From: Alteromonas pelagimontana
GTDB lineage: Bacteria; Pseudomonadota; Gammaproteobacteria; Enterobacterales; Alteromonadaceae
NCBI RefSeq assembly: GCF_002499975.2
Contig: NZ_CP052766.1
Coordinates: 3,906,001 to 3,970,000 of the forward strand
Direction: 5' to 3'
Length of the DNA stretch: 64,000 bases
Below are positions 40,368 to 61,835 of the stretch, in pieces (positions within the stretch are counted from its first letter, which is position 1; each line of letters begins with the position of its first letter). The position numbers were made by a program, and so were the translations under genes. The notes beneath the pieces were generated by a model. The model had not been told where the DNA came from and searched no databases. It was given only the letters and a program-made list of their open reading frames with translations.

Positions 40368-42740
40368 GTGCAAGATTACGTATTTTGGTATCAAGAATTA
40401 GGCATGCAGGATGTCGTACGCGTGGGTGGGAAAAATGCTTCATTGGGGGAGATGATTTCTAATCTGGCGAATGCCGGGGTTCAAGTGCCCGGAGGTTTTG
40501 CTACCACAGCAGACGCATTCAATGAGTTTCTGGAGCAAAGCGGCCTTGACGCCCGGATTCACCAGTTGCTGGATTCACTCGATGTTGATGATGTCACGGC
40601 GCTTGCTGAAGCTGGTAAAAATATCCGCCAATGGATTATTGATACACCGTTTCAGCCAGAGCTTGAAGCTGCGATAAAGCAATATTTTATTGAATTACAA
40701 GGTGACGCTGACCAAGATGCATCTTTTGCAGTACGTTCCTCGGCGACCGCGGAAGATATGCCTGACGCTTCTTTCGCCGGACAGCAAGAAACATTTTTAA
40801 ATGTGAAAGGCTATGAATCGGTGCTGGTTGCGATAAAGCATGTTTTTGCGTCTTTATTTAACGACCGTGCCATATCCTACCGCGTGCATCAGGGGTACGA
40901 TCATAAGGGCGTTGCATTGTCTGCTGGCGTTCAGCGCATGGTAAGAAGTGACATTGCTTCCTCTGGCGTTATGTTCACGATAGATACAGAATCTGGTTTT
41001 GAAGATGTGGTGTTTATCACCAGTTCCTTCGGATTGGGTGAGATGGTCGTTCAGGGCGCGGTGAATCCTGATGAATTTTACGTACACAAGCCTACTCTCA
41101 ACAAGGGACTTCCTGCAATTTTGCGGCGTAATCTTGGCAGTAAGCTAATTAAAATGATCTATTCCGATGACCAAAGCCACGGAAAGCAAGTTTCTATTGT
41201 TGATATTGAGAAAAAAGACAGTATGCAATTCTCGTTGACCGATGAAGAAGTCACGGAATTGGCCAAACAGGCGATGATTATCGAAAAGCACTATAAACGT
41301 CCAATGGATATTGAATGGGCAAAAGATGGTGTAGATGGCAAATTGTATATTGTGCAGGCACGTCCGGAGACGGTCCGCAGTCGAGAAAATACGCAAAGCA
41401 TAGAACGCTTTCATTTGAAAAGTGAAGGGAAAGTTATCTGCGAGGGCCGGGCTATCGGCCATAAAATTGGTGCCGGTGAAGCAAAGGTGCTGGCCTCTAT
41501 TGAAGAGATGAACAAGATTCAGGCAGGGGATGTGTTGGTGACGGATATGACTGATCCTGACTGGGAGCCGATTATGAAAAAGGCTTCCGCCATTGTCACC
41601 AATCGCGGCGGCAGAACTTGCCACGCAGCCATTATTGCACGTGAGCTGGGTATTCCTGCGGTTGTCGGATGTGGAAATGCCACTGACACGCTTAAAAACG
41701 GCGAGAAAGTAACGGTTTCCTGTGCAGAAGGCGATACCGGCTACATCTATAGTTCAGCGCTGGAATTCGATGTGACAACGTCGCGGATAGATGCCATGCC
41801 CGACCTGCCGCTAAAAGTGATGATGAATGTGGGCAATCCTGACCGGGCCTTTGATTTTGCGCGGTTACCTCATAAAGGTGTAGGTTTGGCGCGGCTTGAA
41901 TTTATTATTAATCGAATGATTGGCGTGCATCCAAAAGCTCTGCTCAATTTCGACAGCCAACCTGAGGAGCTGAAAGAAGAAATCAGCGATATGATTGCGG
42001 GTTACGAATCTCCCACTGAGTTTTATATTGAAAAGCTTGTAGAAGGCATTGCCACAATTGGTGCGGCGTTTTCACCGGAAAAAGTTATTGTGCGCATGTC
42101 GGATTTTAAGTCCAACGAGTATTTTAATCTAGTGGGAGGATATCAATACGAGCCAGATGAAGAAAACCCGATGTTGGGCTTTCGCGGAGCGAGCCGGTAT
42201 GTGTCAGACGATTTCAGAGACTGTTTTGCCCTTGAATGTGAGGCGGTAAAGCGGGTACGCAATAAGATGGGGCTTACCAACGTGGAAATAATGATCCCGT
42301 TTGTACGTACTCTGGATGAAGGTCAGCAGGTTATTGATATTCTGGCAGAGCAGGGGCTGGTTCAGGGAGAAAATGGTTTGCGTGTTATTATGATGTGCGA
42401 ACTACCTTCTAATGCATTGTTGGCAGACAAGTTCCTAGATATTTTTGACGGTTTTTCTATTGGCTCCAACGATTTGACTCAGCTTACGCTGGGACTAGAT
42501 CGGGATTCAGGGCTTATCGCTCATTTGTTTGATGAGCGAGACGACGCTGTAAAAGCGTTGTTATCCATGGCAATCCGGGCCGCGAAAGAACGCGGAAAAT
42601 ACGTAGGAATATGCGGACAGGGCCCTTCAGATCATGAAGATTTTGCAGGATGGTTAGTGAATGAAGGAATAGACTCCGTCTCGCTGAATCCCGATACTGT
42701 TGTTGAGACATGGCTGTACCTGGCAGAAAATCATAATTAG
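40368..42740 (+). CDS. ppsA: Phosphoenolpyruvate synthase
   Basis: PpsA makes PEP from pyruvate and ATP (to AMP and phosphate), the entry to gluconeogenesis. The 790-residue chain (E. coli 792) has the ATP-grasp-like N-terminal domain ([39 protein letters not shown]), the swivelling domain with catalytic His in [21 protein letters not shown], and the C-terminal TIM barrel ([46 protein letters not shown]). The GTG at 40368 is the start: GGAGG lies eight bases upstream and the length then matches the family. Confidence 0.97.
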
Positions 42741-42920: not shown

Positions 42921-43100
42921 TCAGTTTTTACTACGGCCAAACAAGTAATACCCATAGGCACCTAACATGATCCCGATTATCCCGCTATACCATAACGATA
43001 GCGCCTGATCTAAGGGTTTCGCTACGGCGTGAGTAATTTGAATTACCAAATATCCTAAGGCAGCAAGAAAGAAAACAGAATATTTTAAAATGTTCATCAT
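42921..43100 (-). CDS. Two-helix membrane protein, possible immunity protein
   Basis: A 59-residue hydrophobic protein with two helices (NILKYSVFFLAALGYLVIQI and YSGIIGIMLGAYGYYLFG) and a basic C-terminus GRSKN. Two ATGs are adjacent (43100 and 43097); a GAGTAGAGA sequence precedes them. It follows the two double-glycine peptide genes on the same strand, 48 bp after the second, with a 26-bp palindrome between. Small membrane proteins in this position commonly are immunity proteins of bacteriocins. That role is inferred from position, size and topology only. Confidence 0.6.
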   Translation of the reverse strand: MMNILKYSVFFLAALGYLVIQITHAVAKPLDQALSLWYSGIIGIMLGAYGYYLFGRSKN

Positions 43101-43115
43101 ATCTCTACTCGGAAT

Positions 43116-43141
43116 AGCCAGATATTTTAAAATATCTGGCT
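43116..43141. repeat. Perfect 26-bp palindrome in the peptide cassette
   Basis: Arms AGCCAGATATTTT and its exact complement with no spacer. On the plus strand it runs into TTGTTTTTT, so it has the form of a terminator for plus-strand transcripts. On the minus strand it lies between the second peptide gene and the membrane protein gene and could be a processing or stabilising hairpin. Confidence 0.7.
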
Positions 43142-43148
43142 TTGTTTT

Positions 43149-43274
43149 TTAACGCCAGTAACCCGCTCCGTACATGGCACTAATTAATCCCATATCCGCA
43201 GCTGCAATACCAAGAATAAGCGGTAAAATGCCGCCATTGACGGTTTCCAGTTCTTGAAGTGTTAATTCTTGCAT
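43149..43274 (-). CDS. Double-glycine leader peptide B (bacteriocin-like)
   Basis: A 41-residue precursor: a 15-residue leader MQELTLQELETVNGG, matching the double-glycine consensus (L-x-x-x-E-L-x-x-V-x-G-G), and a 26-residue hydrophobic core starting ILPLILGIAAADMG and ending GAGYWR. The ATG at 43274 has GGAGAG six bases upstream. The gene follows peptide A after 21 bp on the same strand, and the two cores share ILP at the start and AGYW at the end, so they arose by duplication and may act as a pair. Double-glycine leaders are removed during export by C39-peptidase ABC transporters; none lies in the window. Confidence 0.75.
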   Translation of the reverse strand: MQELTLQELETVNGGILPLILGIAAADMGLISAMYGAGYWR

Positions 43275-43295
43275 AACATACTCTCCTTTTAAAGT

Positions 43296-43445
43296 TTACC
43301 AATAACCTGCGCTGATCATAAAGCCGGTAAGTGCCGCATCTAAACCTACAGCAGCTGCAATAATGGGAAGGATCCCACCATTGACTTGCTCAATTTCCGA
43401 CGCGTTAAGTTGCATGGCTGGTGAATCGAAACTTATTTCGTTCAT
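43296..43445 (-). CDS. Double-glycine leader peptide A (bacteriocin-like)
   Basis: A 49-residue precursor: a 24-residue leader ending LNASEIEQVNGG, a clear double-glycine export signal, and a 25-residue core starting ILPIIAAAVGLD and ending SAGYW. The core is hydrophobic with one Asp and no Cys, so it looks like an unmodified membrane-active peptide (class IIb bacteriocin or microcin type). AAGGAGG lies seven bases before the ATG, one of the best ribosome binding sites in the window. Genes of such size are easily missed by annotation. The function is inferred; a signalling peptide is the main alternative. Confidence 0.75.
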   Translation of the reverse strand: MNEISFDSPAMQLNASEIEQVNGGILPIIAAAVGLDAALTGFMISAGYW

Positions 43446-43764
43446 CGTTTTTCCTCCTTGAATTGATGTTGTGCCAAAATGGCCAAACCATTATTAACGT
43501 CTCTATAAGCTTTAACAACGGCCGAAAGGCCAGTTTTGTGACACGATGCAGCGTAAGTCTTCATTTATAGAAGAGTTGTTGAACCCGTTACTTACGAACG
43601 TTTATCTTAAATCACGTTATTTGAAAGTCAGATTTGACGTGAAATAAATTTATGCTTTGTCGGAATGAAGCAAAAGGAATTGTGGAAAACCGCAAGTTTT
43701 GGCTAGAGACTGACAGGAGCGATGGGTATACTTAGCGTCCAAATATCAGTTGGAGAGTTGTAAC
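43446..43764. promoter_or_regulatory. Divergent control region of the peptide cassette and ydiJ
   Basis: 319 bp. For the minus-strand peptides, TTGTTA and TAATAA 16 bp apart (about 43519 to 43492) make a plausible promoter. An overlapping 40-codon frame (43564 to 43442) runs through the AAGGAGG site and stops with ATGA at the peptide A start; it may be a chance frame. For the plus-strand dehydrogenase, TTGAAA at 43621 with TAAATT 18 bp later is a candidate promoter. A GGCC-GAAA-GGCC hairpin lies near 43520. Confidence 0.4.
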
Positions 43765-61229: not shown

Positions 61230-61835
61230 TAAAGAATCCACCTTCTAAAGAAGGTGGCTTTGTGTGAACCCCCTAAAAGGGGGCCTTCTATTCTAGGGCG
61301 AGCTGAGCTTGCTCTTGTCTTTCAACCTTCTCCTGGTGACGTACATAACGTCTAATGATCTCTTCGTTCACTCCCACTGAATCAACAAAGTAACCTCGTT
61401 GCCAGAAGTGGTTTCCCCACATTTTGTTCTTTCTCAAATGTGGGTACTTATTGAATAGTTTCAAAGCTATCTTGCCTTTTAAAGCACCCATCAGGTTTGA
61501 TATCGACAGCTTTGGAGGAATTTTTACTACTAGGTGAACATGGTCTATCTGCACGTTCAACTCCATCACTATGCAGTCGAGTTGCTGACAGTAGACGTGA
61601 ATACACCTGTAAACATCTTTGCCTAATTTATTCGATAATATCCTGAACCGGTATTTCGGAGTCCAGACTATGTGATATTGACATCGCCAAAACACGTGCG
61701 ATGCTTGCTCGTATCTACTCATGTTATTTTCCTTTTTGACTTCGCTAAAAATCAAAGGGAGATTTAACATGGGTAGGTATACGGGCAAAGCCCTGACATT
61801 AATGATAACCACCTACTGAAGTAGGTGGTTTAGGG
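61230..61835 (-). mobile_element. IS200/IS605-type insertion sequence
   Basis: About 600 bp holding only a tnpA gene. Both ends carry subterminal hairpins of the kind TnpA recognises: CCACCTTC-TAAA-GAAGGTGG at 61238-61257 and AACCACCTAC-TGAA-GTAGGTGGTT at 61807-61830, with no terminal inverted repeats. A further hairpin (CCCCC-TAAA-AGGGGG, about 61268-61282) directly follows the transposase stop. Exact ends are estimates. No tnpB is present. Confidence 0.8.
61288..61722 (-). CDS. tnpA: IS200-type Y1 transposase
   Basis: Single-strand transposase of the HUH family, 144 residues, apparently intact. The HUH pair is H61/H63 in QIDHVHLVVKIPP; the catalytic Tyr is probably Y126 in IIRRYVRHQE. Other family blocks are YHIVWTPKYRFRIL and HFWQRGYFVDSVG. 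The frame continues upstream, but AAGGA before the ATG at 61722 and the family start MSRYEQASHVFWRCQYHIVW decide. It acts on the hairpin ends of its own element. Confidence 0.93.
   Translation of the reverse strand: MSRYEQASHVFWRCQYHIVWTPKYRFRILSNKLGKDVYRCIHVYCQQLDCIVMELNVQIDHVHLVVKIPPKLSISNLMGALKGKIALKLFNKYPHLRKNKMWGNHFWQRGYFVDSVGVNEEIIRRYVRHQEKVERQEQAQLALE

Follow-up and report, generated by a model that had tools for sequence, protein, structure and literature searches.

The window analysed here, a stretch of DNA of 64,000 nucleotides, carries at 42921..43445 three minus-strand open reading frames (49, 41 and 59 aa in the window's ORF list) that, on sequence grounds, make up a well-formed cassette belonging to an already described bacteriocin sequence family; what sets it apart is its duplicated alpha peptides and the distance separating it from its predicted exporter. 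The reading favoured, and held with fair confidence, is that the first two frames (pepA and pepB) encode unmodified class II bacteriocin precursors derived from a duplicated alpha gene, and the third a protective inner-membrane protein, with the peptides being exported in trans and causing membrane leakage. Given their strong ribosome sites, both precursors would be made; a distant C39 exporter, together with an HlyD adaptor and a TolC-like channel, parts recognisable by sequence, would cut after NGG and export the cores. The hydrophobic, near-neutral cores would then insert as helices and leak the inner membrane of close relatives without the matching protein, while the 59-aa protein, with two transmembrane (TM) segments, would by its position be the component that blocks insertion damage in the producer.

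Precursor genes and family assignment

The two peptide genes described in an earlier note on this DNA, 21 nt apart on the minus strand and each preceded by a good Shine-Dalgarno site (AAGGAGG and AAGGAG, in front of ATG start codons), were recovered as described (Table 1), as were their NGG leaders and the cores of 25 and 26 residues, with few charges, that run from ILP to AGYW. Net charges of the pepA and pepB cores are −1 and 0, and Kyte-Doolittle maxima of 1.91 and 1.97 make them hydrophobic enough for membrane insertion. Chance origin of the two frames was ruled out by a dinucleotide-shuffle test of the leader pattern, in which two ORFs of 30-75 aa with the pattern were found in the window (pepA and pepB) versus an average of 0.13, and never more than one, in 30 shuffles of the whole window, for a pattern written after pepA, pepB and related leaders had been seen. 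Promoter-like matches in the cassette region number six over both strands, against a shuffle mean of 2.4. The G+C content of the cassette is 41%, compared with 46% for the window, which places it among the lowest 5% of the window's 525-bp stretches. Elsewhere in the window, at 61288-61812, lies an IS200-like Y1 transposase gene (Pfam PF01797).

Table 1. Positions and properties of the cassette features within the window
Feature	Position	Strand	Details
pepA, 49-aa precursor	43296..43445	-	leader MNEISFDSPAMQLNASEIEQVNGG, core ILPIIAAAVGLDAALTGFMISAGYW; TIGR03949 32.8 bits; alpha-type core
pepB, 41-aa precursor	43149..43274	-	leader MQELTLQELETVNGG, core ILPLILGIAAADMGLISAMYGAGYWR; TIGR03949 34.1 bits; alpha-type core
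59-aa small membrane protein, immunity candidate	42921..43100	-	two hydrophobic segments; homologues in genomes G003 and G027 at the ppsA flank
pepA Shine-Dalgarno site AAGGAGG	43453..43459	-	from the sequence
pepB Shine-Dalgarno site AAGGAG	43283..43288	-	from the sequence
11-bp perfect hairpin in the gap between pepB and the 59-aa gene	43116..43141		T-run on the plus strand only, terminator-like there
Weak promoter-like TTGTTA-17-AATAAT, 5' of pepA	43490..43518	-	consensus match, 9/12; not taken as a sign of function

The earlier note knew of no described family with an AGYW ending, and in this it was mistaken. Both peptides exceed the 21.5-bit cut-off of the NCBIfam model TIGR03949, "class IIb bacteriocin, lactobin A/cerein 7B family", with matches (32.8 and 34.1 bits) that span nearly the whole model, leader and core, and they are the only two matches to that model in their own genome at E <= 0.001. 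These matches rule out a new family without relatives, and by sequence pepA and pepB are members of the TIGR03949 family. The match draws on both leader and core, and the pass of pepB is largely leader-driven: shuffled cores behind the native pepA leader gave anything from no match to 18.2 bits, with none of five passing, and shuffled cores behind the native pepB leader gave 21.3-25.4 bits, with four of five still passing. Against PF10439, pepB reached 16.2 bits, under the 27.1 cut-off. The cassette departs from the family in its duplicated alpha-type peptides and in having no exporter in cis; the namesakes of the model, lactobin A and cerein 7B, come from Gram-positive bacteria.

Wider searches added little. 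Among 5.8 billion proteins, in a search that requires shared 5-residue words, pepA, pepB and the 59-aa protein matched only themselves. The best match in PHROGs was no better than E 0.08, pepB gave a single match at E 4 among plasmids, and pepA gave none among phages. When a 22-peptide profile was compared with solved structures the best match was Mcl-1 (E 0.0086), which was taken as chance.

A tandem pair of genes with one immunity candidate, matching a model that is named class IIb, in a genus that has two-gene cassettes with both partners conserved across species, could belong to a true two-peptide class IIb bacteriocin, the peptides of which are active solely in combination, each complementing the other in a membrane pore. 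That interpretation is nevertheless doubtful. Each core has the other as its nearest match (z about 7), as paralogues do, and both are alpha-like (z 3.7-6.3 versus the alpha cores of genomes G004, G031 and G028), whereas their likeness to beta cores is lower or lacking (z −0.4 to 2.1; z 3.0-3.2 versus one first partner of the type II pairs described below). No beta-like gene was found among intergenic ORFs of at least 20 aa, which disposes of a beta partner in the window at that size, and neither core has a GxxxG motif. Small-xxx-small spacings (4 and 5) were reached by 37% and 10.5% of shuffles and, not being above shuffles, were rejected as support for packing of the GxxxG kind. Because the z scores are alpha-like, no beta ORF was found and GxxxG is absent, pepA and pepB are read as a duplicated alpha peptide, the copies of which may work alone or jointly; and because GxxxG is absent and small-xxx-small spacing is not above shuffles, the cassette is filed as a member of the sequence family only, rather than as a proven class IIb bacteriocin. 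Of the duplicated two-component bacteriocin proposed earlier, then, the duplication stands, but complementarity is doubtful, since both peptides are alpha-type and the beta peptide of genomes G004, G022, G028 and G031 is absent.

The small membrane protein and its genomic site

The 59-residue protein, proposed earlier as a two-helix membrane protein following the peptides, does have two hydrophobic segments, with Kyte-Doolittle scores of 1.93 and 1.21, the second being weak. Its candidacy for immunity was examined with a positional rule that asks for a same-strand ORF of 45-95 aa with two TM segments no more than 450 bp downstream. The rule was applied to 31 sites, made up of the one in the window, 24 from elsewhere in the genus, two additional ones in the window's own genome and four in two Shewanella species. 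The sites were hand-picked, not blind, from the stronger matches (mostly E of about 1e-6 or better) to A2, a 22-row alignment of related peptides with rows mostly from the same genus as the window, plus the own-genome extras and Shewanella, and a triple-peptide site in genome G002 was left uncounted. Two sets of controls, 353 ORFs of at least 120 aa and 44 small ORFs with a ribosome site but without a GG (double-glycine) motif, were cleaned of duplicate copies of cassette loci. At a TM threshold of 1.2, which was set after the second segment of the window protein had been seen, the rule held at 28 of 31 sites and at 17 of the 19 loci into which shared flanking genes group these non-independent sites, versus 11 of 353 and five of 44 controls; the misses were G079a and the two extra peptides of the own genome. 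A threshold of 1.3, at which the window's 59-aa protein itself fails, left 24 of 31 sites and 13 of 19 loci (controls, 8/353 and 3/44), and one of 1.6 left 19 of 31 sites and 11 of 19 loci (controls, 5/353 and 2/44).

Twelve small membrane proteins, 11 of them cassette neighbours and the other the G003 homologue, were also compared pairwise from four queries. Close agreement was seen within the cassette types G004/G022/G031 and G014/G024, and most of the other proteins were unlike, the pattern to be expected of proteins each fitted to the peptide of its own cassette. As a general rule of cassettes of this sort, immunity by position has good support, and the 59-aa gene is, judged from where it lies, a probable immunity gene.

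The cassette lies between two plus-strand genes. One, ending at 42740, we take to be a phosphoenolpyruvate synthase-like gene, 'ppsA'; the other, starting at 43750, encodes a large FAD/Fe-S oxidase (Pfam) and is presumably 'ydiJ'. Of the ppsA flanks fetched from 13 relatives, four (L074, L075, L076 and L085) have ppsA and the oxidase gene together on a single stretch, and all four include a small membrane-protein gene, the product of which matches Pfam PGPGW in L085 and is similar by eye in the other three. No PGPGW-like gene is present in the intergenic region of the window, so the cassette stands in place of that gene. Homologues of the 59-aa protein occur at the ppsA flank in G003 (L075; E 9e-34, from a profile that includes G003) and in G027 (L144; E 1e-15), the L144 homologue adjoining ppsA, and neither a GG peptide nor a leader remnant was seen by eye upstream of the two. 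Across the genus the 59-aa profile matches 12 of 59 genomes at E <= 0.01, with weaker matches falling inside frames of about 155-164 aa. The pattern in G003 and G027 fits either an immunity gene orphaned by loss of its peptides or a protein native to the site that serves some other purpose.

These peptide-less homologues lower the confidence placed in an immunity role for the 59-aa protein, weakening for this gene a proposal that the positional rule otherwise upholds. They favour the view that the protein belongs to the ppsA flank and has nothing to do with the peptides, which would then be protected otherwise or not at all, as does the 48-nt gap that holds a strong hairpin between pepB and the 59-aa gene (−14.9 kcal/mol, z −5.4, when folded as minus-strand RNA). 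However, the position of the gene fits a rule seen with proteins of several unlike families, and the same pattern would be seen if peptides were lost and their immunity genes stayed; an unrelated resident is judged unlikely, though by no means negligible. The ribosome site of the 59-aa gene is weak, as judged by eye. The hairpin is terminator-like solely for transcription arriving from the ppsA side.

Export in trans

The window's own genome has a single Peptidase_C39 match at E <= 0.001, 1.19 Mb from the cassette, which rules out an exporter nearby and agrees with the earlier statement that none lies close to the peptides. The match, found on carrying out the genome-wide check proposed in the earlier note, belongs to an ABC exporter of 733 aa, next to which lies an HlyD gene. 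Its residues Cys32, His105 and Asp121 bear the same numbers as the catalytic positions of CvaB in the excerpted text of PMC9746304. The exporter and the HlyD protein both fall under the cut-offs of the NCBIfam models shown for them, and the latter exceeds that of Pfam HlyD_3; OEP outer-membrane channel proteins are represented in the genome by eight domain matches in four frames. Since the sole detected C39 exporter sits at such a distance, export would be in trans, as previously suggested, and pepA and pepB are probably exported through it.

The leaders are compatible with such an exporter. At positions −4, −7, −12 and −15, pepA has V, I, L and A and pepB V, L, L and M, with hydrophobic residues at the first three positions in both peptides and at −15 in pepB also; hydrophobic residues at these four positions are what C39 exporters recognise, according to the portion of PMC7018657 consulted. 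The same portion describes several C39 exporters that accept peptides with distinct leaders, and one, studied there, that discriminates.

The exporter locus, a conserved one (L015 9170-14475; genome C1 about 2,752,200-2,757,500), contains genes for the HlyD protein, the C39 exporter, a LuxR-type regulator, a graspetide-like precursor and an ATP-grasp enzyme. The precursor is a 64-aa ORF with a GG-like leader and a core with YITLAIGEDGGKLPD; it has no NCBIfam match, and its resemblance to graspetide precursors is our own reading. The enzyme lies just above Pfam cut-offs (MvdD pre-ATP-grasp, RimK) and below the NCBIfam cut-offs for MvdC/MvdD. An ATP-grasp gene was present in 13 of 20 exporter loci drawn from 18 relatives, and the locus is of a known kind, since C39 exporters and HlyD proteins are named among the commonest partners of ATP-grasp loci in the excerpt of PMC8939145. 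The partner of the exporter at its own locus is in any case another GG-leader peptide, and we infer the use of the exporter by pepA and pepB; it may serve solely the adjacent GG-leader precursor as substrate. Co-occurrence of exporter and TIGR03949 peptides is uninformative here, since a C39 match below 1e-30 turns up in 34 of 36 genomes of the same genus regardless.

The lack of an exporter in cis, and the fact that the sole C39 exporter belongs to a graspetide-like locus, would also suit a cassette that has decayed or fallen silent and whose peptides no exporter can deal with. This is improbable, however, as the frames are intact, both peptides have strong ribosome sites, and several C39 exporters take distinct leaders, as excerpted above. 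In addition, two more GG-leader ORFs of the same genome (L117 3699-3869 and L118 4067-4207; weak profile matches, E 7.5e-4 and 0.0037) likewise lack a local exporter; neither has a two-TM neighbour at a threshold of 1.2. Secreted signalling peptides of the GG pheromone kind, in place of killers, are very improbable: double-glycine export is also used for cell-cell signals (PMC7018657, in part) and a LuxR-family regulator gene adjoins the exporter, but the hydrophobicity of the cores suits membrane insertion, the genes flanking the cassette (ppsA-like and oxidase) include no sensor, and the two-TM neighbour rule better suits immunity.

Physical linkage of homologous exporters to similar peptides is seen in Shewanella. 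An HlyD-C39 exporter of Shewanella gaetbuli (L001; 48% identical to the own exporter) lies directly ahead of three cassettes, and in S. waksmanii (L002) a homologous exporter (47%) lies directly ahead of one, which shows that homologous exporters are linked there to NGG peptides of the pepA/pepB kind. The S. gaetbuli array resembles the window cassette in its GG peptides with EIEQVNGG leaders and in the small two-TM ORF downstream of each, the nearest that passes the rule being 372 bp away for the third cassette. It differs in having the exporter in cis and in comprising three cassettes with one repeated leader, MQNSKIEELTFDEIEQVNGG, and unlike cores; the small membrane proteins are unlike also. 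Within the array (L001 6007-8730) the same ribosome-site sequence is repeated across cassettes, and an identical antisense ORF lies 5' of two of them.

Related cassettes across the genus

Homologues with conserved leaders, for which the earlier note had proposed a search, were found in other genomes. TIGR03949 is exceeded in 11 of 59 genus genomes, the own one included, and the A2 profile matches 38 of 59 at E <= 0.01 and, by our own count, 26 of 59 at E <= 1e-4. Across the order, eight of 247 genomes match at the latter threshold, three of them from the same genus; with seven of the 247 assigned to the genus by listing order, matches outside it come to five of 240, and the contrast of 26/59 with 5/240 is biased by A2 having been built mostly from the same genus.

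Reading of the loci distinguished at least four core types in the genus. Type I comprises alpha cores like those of the window, with a beta partner in G004, G022, G028 (where beta comes first) and G031. Type II is a pair with WGHVAIAIAVADAAYDFYQGYSDHR-like and GLFYDLGxFFAxVxNAxDSIYxQYGNTNxNHW-like cores, found in eight genomes (G003, G014, G015, G016, G024, G027, G073 and G079); the partners keep the same order and are followed by a small hydrophobic ORF, which in G079 fails the two-TM rule. The type II loci (L119 2808-3360, L120, L123, L124, L128, L130, L018 and L009) have GG or GA leaders. In the example scanned, L119, all three proteins stay below the NCBIfam cut-offs, and the first partners of G014 and G024 pass TIGR03949, as do some type III peptides. 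Type III is a single RLDWDSGGLAVIGLGFAGGPAT-like peptide and type IV a single peptide with a GAGLYDATH ending. The G002 site (L158 637-1596) has three tandem GG peptides and, after them, a membrane protein of 75 aa in which three segments are hydrophobic; this site and L117 are both, we presume, near ribosomal protein genes. Related GG peptides are, in short, present as many unlike cassettes across the genus, in which one to three such peptides repeatedly come with a two-TM ORF.

By component types the cassette has a likeness to class II microcins of the microcin V type, since its genome encodes all five (a precursor with a GG leader, a candidate for the immunity protein, a C39 exporter with catalytic triad, an HlyD adaptor and an OEP/TolC-like channel; component list from the excerpt of PMC9746304). 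It differs from these in that its components are split by 1.19 Mb and its cores have 25-26 residues. Known microcin cores are longer than this. The Cdz system of Caulobacter crescentus (CdzC/CdzD/CdzI), as given in the excerpt of PMC5380434, is similarly a small pair with type I export and a small transmembrane immunity protein. The Cdz proteins, however, are of 86 and 84 aa with glycine zippers, RTX-like N termini and an exporter in cis (same excerpt), whereas the window peptides, of 49 and 41 aa, have NGG leaders and lack GxxxG as well as the extended GxxxGxxxG zipper. Annotation often overlooks small twin-glycine bacteriocins close to C39 type I systems, according to the text seen of PMC3223724, which also cites a genome-wide screen for Gram-negative GG peptides (Dirix 2004). 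Peptides from such genome screens were sought beside an exporter, and the window cassette is far from its own. Open-licence literature yielded nothing on double-glycine bacteriocins in Alteromonas, on double-glycine two-peptide bacteriocins of Gram-negative Proteobacteria or on graspetides in Alteromonas.

A wider reading, to which somewhat less than even weight is given, is that the genus maintains a sizeable and quickly changing collection of orphan GG-peptide/immunity cassettes, with products that would be secreted in trans by a conserved graspetide-linked exporter acting as a shared hub. The collection, dispersed along the chromosomes, would comprise four or more dissimilar core types, of which two are conserved alpha/beta pairs, and the cis-linked substrate of the exporter is graspetide-like in its own genome and in most relatives examined. 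If true, one exporter would serve both modified and unmodified antimicrobial peptides, and cassettes could be gained and lost freely. Characterised Gram-negative GG bacteriocins are few, and ten class II microcins, most of them from E. coli, are listed as validated in the excerpt of PMC9746304. A genus rich in small, unlike cassettes that probably share an exporter would offer a test bed for trans export, for the matching of immunity proteins to cores and for exclusion among close relatives, and the genus-wide repertoire around the cassette is a more interesting result than the cassette itself.
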